A stretch of DNA of 64,000 nt from Anoxynatronum buryatiense (GTDB lineage: Bacteria; Bacillota; Clostridia; Peptostreptococcales; Tindalliaceae), in the NCBI RefSeq assembly GCF_900182905.1, contig NZ_FXUF01000012.1, positions 1 through 64,000 of the forward strand, in the 5' to 3' direction. Of the stretch, positions 16,925 through 57,007 are shown piece by piece. The notes under the pieces are model-generated. The model had not been told where the DNA came from, ran no database searches, and saw only the letters and a list, made by a program, of their open reading frames with translations. The stretch's first letter is position 1, and every line of letters starts with the position of its first letter. A program made the translations under genes and the position numbers.

Positions 16925-17253
16925 ACCCATGCAAAAAACCCGTCCATTGCACAGTCTGAGACTGTTGCAAGGGACGGGTTATCTTTTCCGCGGTGCCACC
17001 CTGATTAATTTGGCTTTCAAAACCAAATTCACTCATATTGGTACGGAAAAGCCACGCTTTTCGATACCTGTTCCCTGTAACGGGGGACGGCCGTCCGAGT
17101 CTACTGGGCGCTGGTTTCTCCATTGCCGGTTCGGTCGGATGCTCCCGGGTGTTCTTCAATCCGTTCCGCCTGCCGGGCTCACACCTTCCCCGGCTCGCTG
17201 AGAGTTGGATACTGGATTTACTCTCCCGTTCAACGCACGTTGCTGTTGGATTG
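16925..17253 (-). promoter_or_regulatory. T-box leader (tRNA-sensing riboswitch) of aspS-gatCAB
   Basis: The minus strand holds the T-box core AGGGTGGCACCGCGG at 17003-16989. It is followed by a terminator hairpin (16981-16936, ACCCGTCC pairing with GGACGGGT, then TTTTTT). A Stem I region lies upstream at about 17240-17130. The best candidate specifier is AAC (Asn) at 17153-17151 inside GAAGAACACC, followed by the usual A. An Asn specifier would fit a transamidation operon that responds to uncharged tRNA(Asn). The T-box class is certain; the specifier needs a structural alignment because I placed it by eye. Confidence 0.93.
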
Positions 17254-53923: not shown

Positions 53924-54205
53924 CTAATATTTCTCCAGCATCAGTTTTTTCCATTTGAACAGCTGCGACAGTGAAATCACCACTTCACTGCTTTGGGCCG
54001 TCAATTTTTTGGGGATAAAGAGGGTAATCCCCTGATGCTGAAAAGCTTCGTAATCCTCCGGATTACTTTCGGGCTCCCAAAGATCAATCACCGCCACATC
54101 CACGGTGCCCGAGTGGCATCAACCCTGTTTGACATAGTGAATTCCTGCCTTGCCTCCGTTCTGAAGGATGTATTCCACCGCTGCTTTTTCCATGCTAATT
54201 TTCAT
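53924..54205 (-). CDS. Small selenoprotein with UGA-Cys motif (CC/Se-motif family-like)
   Basis: 94 codons with an in-frame UGA at codon 29 (54121-54119), directly followed by a Cys codon: QG-Sec-CHSGTVDVAVIDLWEP. Reading continues for 64 more codons (ending FKWKKLMLEKY) with no further stop. The N-terminus is MKISMEKAAVEYILQNGGKAG. A GGGTGA site lies six bases before the ATG at 54205. I recall a bacterial (seleno)protein family of about 100 residues named for a Cys-Cys or Sec-Cys motif; this fits in size and motif. A hairpin with the geometry of a bacterial SECIS starts 11 nt after the UGA. Redox function is inferred from the Sec-Cys pair. A pseudogene is less likely because both sides are coding-like. 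Confidence 0.8.
54089..54107 (-). promoter_or_regulatory. Candidate SECIS element in the UGA-Cys gene
   Basis: In the mRNA, CACCG (54107-54103) pairs perfectly with CGGUG (54093-54089) around the 9-nt loop UGGAUGUGG. The stem starts 11 nt after the UGA and the loop 16 nt after it, with G in the second loop position. This fits the bacterial SECIS rule of a stem-loop just downstream of the Sec codon, to be bound by SelB. Confidence 0.65.
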
Positions 54206-54280
54206 GGGGTTTCACCCTTTCCATCTTGTGCTATAATAATACCACTGCAGACATCACCGCAGCCTGAAAGGAATCTAACG

Positions 54281-56227: not shown

Positions 56228-57007
56228 TTACCAATAAGCCGCTGCCATGCGGCGCAGCTGCTGTTCTGCCTCCGCCGACAGATTCATCCATTTCAGGTCT
56301 TCCTCCATCTGCTCCGGTGTTCCATGACCGGCCAGGTAACCGTTCACTCGGGCGGCGGTGGTGGAGTCCACAAAGGCATTAAAGGTGTCAAACTGACTTT
56401 TCACCTCGCCAAACAGCTCCCGCCGGTTCTGCAGATAATATTTCTGGTGGTAATCCTCGGCTGAGTAGAAGGTCACTTCTGACCGAATCACTGTCTGCAC
56501 CTGCCGGCCTTTGGCAGCTTCCAACTGCTGGATGGAATTCTGCAGTATCTTGGCCTGCGTGTCGTCGTGGGTAAACACCATGCTGCGGTACTGGGCTGAC
56601 CAGGCCCTTGCAAAGGGGTCGTGGTTTTCCCAGAAGATGTGAAGCAGCGCCTCATATGTGATCACTTCAGGGTCATAGACAATCTGAATGGTTTCTGTAT
56701 GATCGCCAATCTGGTGGTACGTGGGGTTGGGGGTGGTGCCTCCGGCATAACCGACACGGGTGCGCATCACTCCCGGCTGTTGCCCGAACCGGGCATCAGG
56801 TCCCCAGAATCAGCCAAGGGCAAAAGTGGCTGTTGCTTCATGGGTGGTTTGATCATTGATTTCCTGCATTTCATCACCTCTTTCAGTTTCTGACGCGGGA
56901 TTACCCGCGTGTTCTTCCCGGCAGCCAGTAACGACTGCCGCCACTAATACCCATAACAGCAGCAATCCCAAAACCGGAAACCGCCGCCTCTTCAGATTCT
57001 TGTTCAC
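56228..57007 (-). CDS. msrA: Selenocysteine-containing MsrA (lipoprotein methionine sulfoxide reductase A)
   Basis: 259 codons with an in-frame UGA at codon 66 (56812-56810). It falls exactly where MsrA has its catalytic Cys: ALG-Sec-FWGPDARFGQQPGV, then RTRVGYAGGTTPNPTYHQIGDHTE. Normal MsrA sequence resumes to the end (about residues 66-259). A signal peptide with Arg-rich start and lipobox VVTGC (Cys about 29) predicts a lipoprotein outside the cytoplasm. The mature part has no Cys apart from the lipobox, so no resolving Cys; reduction must use an external partner. A SECIS-like hairpin lies 10 nt downstream. The GTG start overlaps the upstream UspA gene by 4 nt. Standard ORF calling splits it in two. 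Confidence 0.92.
56777..56799 (-). promoter_or_regulatory. Candidate SECIS element in msrA
   Basis: In the mRNA: CUG, AU, GCCCG, loop GUU, CGGGC, AA, CAG. Two perfect stems around a symmetric AU/AA internal loop, starting 10 nt after the Sec UGA, with G first in the apical loop. It fits the bacterial SECIS pattern well. Confidence 0.75.

Follow-up and report, generated by a model that had tools for sequence, protein, structure and literature searches.

A predicted CC/Se selenoprotein of Anoxynatronum buryatiense from a clade with a likely link to arsenic-resistance genes

The described family closest to the gene reported here is NF041239, named CC/Se motif family (seleno)protein, which a 2026 review treats, in its visible part, as a hypothetical protein predicted in Moorella thermoacetica, with the motif CxxU and without a stated function (PMC13188914). 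The review also describes a group of selenoproteins most of which are implicated in mercury or arsenic resistance; NF041239 is absent from the visible part of that group's list, and the arsenic passages in the accessible text do not concern it (PMC13188914). The available portions of two older selenoprotein papers hold nothing on the family (PMC2398784, PMC5029168), and in the literature searched it is named nowhere besides PMC13188914. Titles and opening lines of abstracts on selenoproteins and ars genes suggest no such link; PMC12013261, outside that scope, may state one. A second described group, the HesB-like selenoproteins (TIGR01911; NF038090, IscA_HesB_Se), shares with our protein a selenocysteine (Sec) on a HesB-type protein. 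Its motif, UxGP in the visible text of the review (PMC13188914), is unlike the UC found here, and our protein scores 15.6 bits against NF038090, where the cut-off is 85.

The gene lies on the minus strand of the window, the 64,000-nucleotide stretch of the A. buryatiense genome that was analysed (Table 1). Its frame runs from an ATG at 54205 to a UGA at codon 29, continues for 64 open codons past the UGA (counting the TGC that follows it) and closes with TAG at 53926-53924, and the Shine-Dalgarno-like AAAGGGTGA ends 6 nt 5' of the ATG. Start codon, ribosome site, UGA, TGC and the 64 further codons are all as a first-pass annotation of this DNA had described them. With UGA read as Sec, the translation starts MKISMEKAAVEYILQNGGKAGIHYVKQGUCHSGTVDVAVIDL... 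The divergent neighbour is identified as YgiQ by TIGR03904 (816.9 bits). The first-pass annotation had expected the position between a RibD-like gene and ygiQ to be informative. This expectation failed: neither gene was among the ORFs lying up to 5 kb from the other 17 members of the clade defined below, in a search that left out ORFs overlapping the gene by >50 bp and in which some flanks were short. The two neighbours are therefore rejected as a functional clue, and the local neighbourhood is regarded as uninformative. Elsewhere in the window, a frame for an MsrA-type protein with a lipoprotein-like N-terminal signal (56228-57007, minus strand; PF01625, 152.9 bits) needs a UGA at its codon 66 (LGUFWG) and represents a further candidate selenoprotein gene at a distance of 2 kb, and a T-box leader is recognised at 16967-17242 on the minus strand (115.7 bits).

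Table 1. Features of the selenoprotein gene and its immediate surroundings (positions in the window)
Feature	Position	Strand	Basis
Selenoprotein gene, 93 codons plus stop, NF041239, UC[HR]S clade	53924..54205	-	NF041239 score; clade alignment, dN/dS
UGA codon 29, read as Sec, aligned with IscA Cys35	54119..54121	-	TGA in 18/18 clade members; IscA/SufA/ErpA profile alignment
Cys30 codon TGC, vicinal to Sec29	54116..54118	-	TGC/TGT in 18/18 clade members
Candidate SECIS hairpin CACCGT-GGATGTG-GCGGTG	54089..54107	-	Folding and terminator scan
Shine-Dalgarno-like GGGTGA	54212..54217	-	Sequence
75-bp gap between selenoprotein start and likely divergent ygiQ start (ATG 54281)	54206..54280	.	

The first-pass annotation had placed the protein in a small family with Sec-Cys or Cys-Cys motifs, and NF041239 bears this out: the window protein, with U29-C30, scores 56.2 bits (cut-off 40), and its residues 1-91, UGA read as Sec, align with positions 1-89 of the 91 in the profile. 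All five members scanned matched the same model. The score against Fe-S_biosyn (PF01521, IscA/HesB), at 13.8 bits, is under the gathering cut-off of 26.3. Members of NF041239 over cut-off occur in 86 of 398 genomes of a phylum sample, and our family set comprises 128 distinct domains taken from part of the matches of that search. The motif is varied: among 141 family sequences, 43 carry UC (18 of them in the clade), 26 CC, 24 CxxU, 5 CU, 2 UU and 2 other Cys arrangements, 34 have Sec without Cys at the dyad or CxxU places, and 5 have none of these. The window clade keeps UC[HR]S or T without a Cys at -3, and the motif holds its only conserved Cys; the window protein has no Cys past residue 30. 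The window genome encodes four further CC/Se members, two CU and two CC (L046-L049, at C10:113264-113539, C9:68258-68518, C2:243955-244218 and C1:56551-56811), the copy on contig C1 being below cut-off. Two UGA codons in a row make up the UU motif of L124 and L125. A regulator-like gene on the opposite strand lies within 3 kb of 19 of the 128 family members (e.g., L016:1779-2552), and the L016 protein, the only one scanned, contains three HTH_3 stretches.

Searches of the organism's own taxonomic family (7 genomes), the phylum (398), the class (391), the order (393) and the class of genome G376 (97), together with one scan of named genomes, returned 18 genes from 17 genomes, the window gene included, that score >85 bits with a profile of the clade. 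In a tree of 134 rows and 87 columns they make up one side of a starred branch with an SH-aLRT of 95, whereas 65 of the 131 inner branches of the same tree are open. By this tree, the 18 genes are one clade, newly recognised here. All 18 members have TGA at the codon 29 position with Cys next to it, which answers the first-pass annotation's proposal to look for Cys or Sec in relatives; among the 141 family sequences, distant relatives have CC in 26. The same annotation had named homologues ending at codon 28, or a lack of conservation past the UGA, as grounds for giving up the selenoprotein. No clade member ends there, and 13 chosen pairs of clade members have dN/dS values of 0.08-0.22 past the UGA, some with dS near saturation, while whole-protein identity to four aligned relatives is 61, 51, 45 and 46%. 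A pseudogene is rejected for the window gene. The window genome encodes the Sec machinery over cut-offs: selA (600.3 bits), selB (389.6 bits) and tRNA-Sec (73.4 bits) are neighbours on contig C3. Of 15 further clade genomes, 13 have SelB over its cut-off, a count that sets the L159 genome aside; the other two are 63% and 79% complete. Decoding of UGA 29 as Sec is well supported by these comparisons of sequences. A decayed C-terminal remnant of a clade gene, without the Sec motif, lies at L211:7694-7810 (minus strand) in genome G006. The gene at L200:8309-8587 (plus strand) has a second in-frame TGA near its C-terminus, at a Ser/Ala position, and the other copy in that genome (L199) is without it.

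The RNA signal is less clear-cut than the codon. A 5-bp stem with a 9-nt loop at SECIS distance, which the first-pass annotation had pointed out, is indeed present (CACCG/CGGTG or, counting U-G, six pairs around a 7-nt loop), starting 11 nt past the UGA with its loop 17 nt past it; it proved neither conserved nor beyond what shuffling yields. Its p value against synonymous-codon shuffles is 0.28, the 63-nt stretch has a folding z of -0.64 with a minimum-energy fold that pairs differently, and over 10 clade members the stem keeps 53% of pair cells, compared with 63% for a version slid by 3. We regard the hairpin as a plausible SECIS and, on the shuffles and the clade conservation, reject it as proof of Sec decoding. 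Folding has a folding p <0.05 in 1 of the 18 clade genes, folding energy does not separate Sec (90) from Cys (26) members (Mann-Whitney p 0.24), and RNAalifold found no structure across all 18 clade genes. Another stem of eight pairs lies further 3' in many ars-type members, with 87.5% of cells paired over 10 members and one compensatory pair; 38 of 500 shuffles were equally good, and the window gene, G001 and G376 keep five of the eight pairs when counted on the alignment. The wider family has a more distinctive hairpin, CC[TC][GA]CCGTGNNNG[TC][AG]GG: 57 of 95 Sec members carry it, as against none of the 33 without Sec, which indicates that many Sec members have a SECIS-like signal. Its conserved form is CCT[GA]CCGTG...G[CT]AGG (e.g., L012, L028 and L108). 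The peptide P[AT]V is coded CCT[GA]CCGTG in 56 of 66 Sec cases, whereas the longer ORFs at these loci use that coding in 4 of 170. This hairpin occurs in none of the 18 clade genes, and the putative SECIS signal of the clade appears to differ from that of the wider family.

An AlphaFold model built from four aligned sequences has a mean pLDDT of 74.3 and a pTM of 0.63. Its five Foldseek matches with E <0.001 are SufA, IscA and YneR chains, and the 10 entries listed by VIA-align, all A-type (some of them taken as such by name), have Z scores of 5.0-8.9, four of them at least 8, among them SufA (8.9) and IscA (8.8). DsrR also appears with YneR among the structural matches; both are Cys-poor A-type proteins. 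A family-wide profile matches E. coli IscA/SufA/ErpA at E 7e-5 with a probability of 63%, placing Sec29 on IscA Cys35; the clade profile alone falls short of IscA (E 0.064). The C-terminal CxC is absent from the window protein, and only 1 of 128 family members has a CxC in its tail; the predicted A-type fold thus comes without the full set of Fe-S ligands. Model and profiles together support an IscA/SufA A-type fold in which Sec stands where IscA has its first Cys ligand. Among PDB chains the clade profile had one match with E <0.001, to a covalently connected cytochrome c555 trimer; at E 0.00085, and without any one stretch that passed, this match was rejected as chance. The family profile found nothing credible among PDB chains, and searches of plasmids and viral contigs returned no match.

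The gene neighbourhoods of the relatives point to arsenic. Nine of the 18 clade genes have the efflux gene acr3 no more than 3 kb away, compared with 6 of 123 genes from the rest of the family, these six falling at four loci (Fisher p 3.5e-6); the control consists of other family members rather than random genes, and its rate is a lower bound because 38 of the 123 have <3 kb on one side. ArsR-type regulator genes occur within 3 kb at 10 of the 18 clade loci and ArsC-like genes at 7, and five loci also hold arsD and arsA. At eight loci (L148, L159, L160, L172, L199, L201, L203 and L206) an arsR-type gene stands immediately before the selenoprotein gene, with gaps of -10 to 60 bp, and arsC and/or acr3 come next, whereas at L200 arsR and acr3 are downstream of it. 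An ArsC-like gene is next after the selenoprotein gene at L148, L160, L172, L199, L201 and L202. At L160, the identities of ACR3, ArsD, the ArsA family and ArsR were verified with models; the arsenate-reductase matches of the ArsC-like proteins scanned are below NCBIfam curated cut-offs. At L202 only an ArsC-like gene adjoins, and G001, the nearest relative of the window gene, has only an ArsR-type regulator. At L206 a cysteine-desulfurase-family gene lies 1.4 kb off, which would agree with a function in sulfur, selenium or Fe-S chemistry.

No ars gene cluster surrounds the window copy, and none of the six clade genes of one taxonomic family (f220) has an ars gene within 3 kb, one flank being shorter at L205 and L208. 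These six genes (L204-L205, L207-L210) overlap tail to tail by ~13 bp with a PLP-dependent gene, which at L207, the one scanned, belongs to the D-cysteine desulfhydrase family. An acr3 does exist in the window genome, at C1:583255-584298; it shares 81% identity with the L160 gene, adjoins an arsR-type gene and lies ~4.3 kb from an arsC-like gene. On the tree, ars-linked genes fall into three of the four parts of the clade, so the linkage is most simply ancestral, and was then most simply lost in the pair formed by the window gene and G001 and in f220. Across the whole tree the linkage label requires at least seven changes. Outside the clade it is seen at L129 (arsC-CCSe-acr3-arsR), L095 (arsR-acr3-CCSe), L127 and L081, where both members contain an in-frame TAA or TAG and may be dead. 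A CC-type member at L214 lies 1.4 kb from an arsenite methyltransferase gene whose frame (L214:7412-8264, minus strand) runs through a UGA (LHCGUVTG). From gene order, an arsenic link for the clade is likely; this linkage, and the apparent detachment of the window copy from ars genes, are to the best of the above literature newly found.

The best explanation that we can offer is that the gene encodes a decoded CC/Se selenoprotein of ars-linked ancestry that binds As(III) through Sec29-Cys30, and we consider its chances of being right and wrong to be evenly balanced. In this 93-residue protein the vicinal selenol-thiol pair would bind As(III) in a way similar to the Cys pair of ArsD, a mechanism that we infer, and the bound As(III) would be buffered or handed to Acr3 efflux, with or without ArsA. 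In the window genome, the gene would have left the ars operon and would work at a distance from acr3, or with a new partner. Selenolate is soft and strongly nucleophilic and suits As(III), which usually takes three thiolate ligands; a single chain offering two counts against binding, and a dimer would supply two Sec and two Cys. A fuller version, in which an IscA-fold selenoprotein passes As(III) by its selenol-thiol to Acr3 or ArsA and was recruited to ars clusters more than once and sometimes released, is possible, although we lean modestly against it. Weighing on the arsenic reading are the positions of the window copy, f220, L202 and G001 outside full ars clusters, the desulfurase-family gene of L206, the in-frame stops of the L081 members, the pLDDT of 74 from 4 sequences, the clade-alone E of 0.064 to IscA, the ArsC-like scores below cut-offs, and a clade SECIS that is only a candidate.

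An unlikely competitor is a redox role, in which Sec29 and Cys30 form a selenenylsulfide served by thioredoxin, and the protein reduces ArsC, the substrate of ArsC or thiols damaged by arsenicals. Thioredoxin genes lie within 3 kb of 18 of the 128 family members (within 300 bp in 14), which makes such a role possible for the wider family, and other branches place the partner Cys at -3 or -1 of the Sec, like redox motifs; yet no such thioredoxin turned up in searches reaching 5 kb to either side of the 18 clade genes. The ArsC-like neighbours at seven clade loci would fit this chemistry, whereas L203 and L206, which have acr3 and arsR, lack an ArsC-like gene inside the 3-kb range, and a bond between neighbouring residues is strained. 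An IscA-type Fe-S carrier or repair protein acting under metalloid stress is improbable: the IscA/SufA-like model, the Sec at the Cys35 position and the desulfurase-family gene near the clade gene of L206 speak for it, but the ligand-bearing CxC tail is missing, and a reading by eye of the neighbours listed for the other clade genes recognised no Fe-S assembly gene. YneR and DsrR are regulatory or binding proteins on an A-type fold, and their presence among the structural matches, like the ArsR-type genes near 10 clade loci, would agree with a regulatory or binding protein whose Sec-Cys pair senses oxidants, selenium or metalloids; we think this quite improbable, as the U-C retained in 18 of 18 members asks for chemistry over a passive surface. 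That the UGA is a true stop, leaving a 28-residue peptide or a dead gene, is very improbable and already contradicted: although 17 of the window's 52 non-overlapping ORFs of ≥150 aa end in TGA and the hairpin after the UGA looks terminator-like in a terminator scan, the protein is constrained past the UGA and the same UGA recurs in all clade members of 17 genomes alongside Sec machinery.

An ORF that standard annotation would cut at codon 28 can in this way be assigned to a pathway from the gene surroundings of its relatives, and the ars linkage suggests a direct, testable role in metalloid defence in anaerobes for the UC clade, perhaps for the whole family. Compared with NF041239 at large, the clade shares the Sec/Cys dyad and a match over nearly the whole length, and differs in being linked to ars genes and in being without the CCT[GA]CCGTG hairpin; its UC[HR]S/T motif also differs from CxxU as given in the visible text of the review (PMC13188914). 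With IscA, SufA and ErpA (PF01521) the window protein shares the predicted fold and the first Cys place, whereas those proteins combine a lone Cys there with a C-terminal CxC and ours has Sec-Cys and no CxC. ArsD (NF033727) has no visible sequence relation to the window protein; it occurs in five of the same clusters and also carries a vicinal Cys pair (MCCSTGIC at L160), and we propose a likeness of ligand chemistry by analogy. The arsenic ligands of ArsD include a third Cys. The ars1 operon of Bacillus sp. CDB3 contains ORF7, a putative HesB-like protein that we liken to ours by description (PMC4562236). ORF7 follows arsT and not arsR, and the accessible text mentions no selenocysteine for it; as a putative HesB-like protein inside an ars operon, it is an earlier case of this fold class being associated with resistance to arsenic (PMC4562236).
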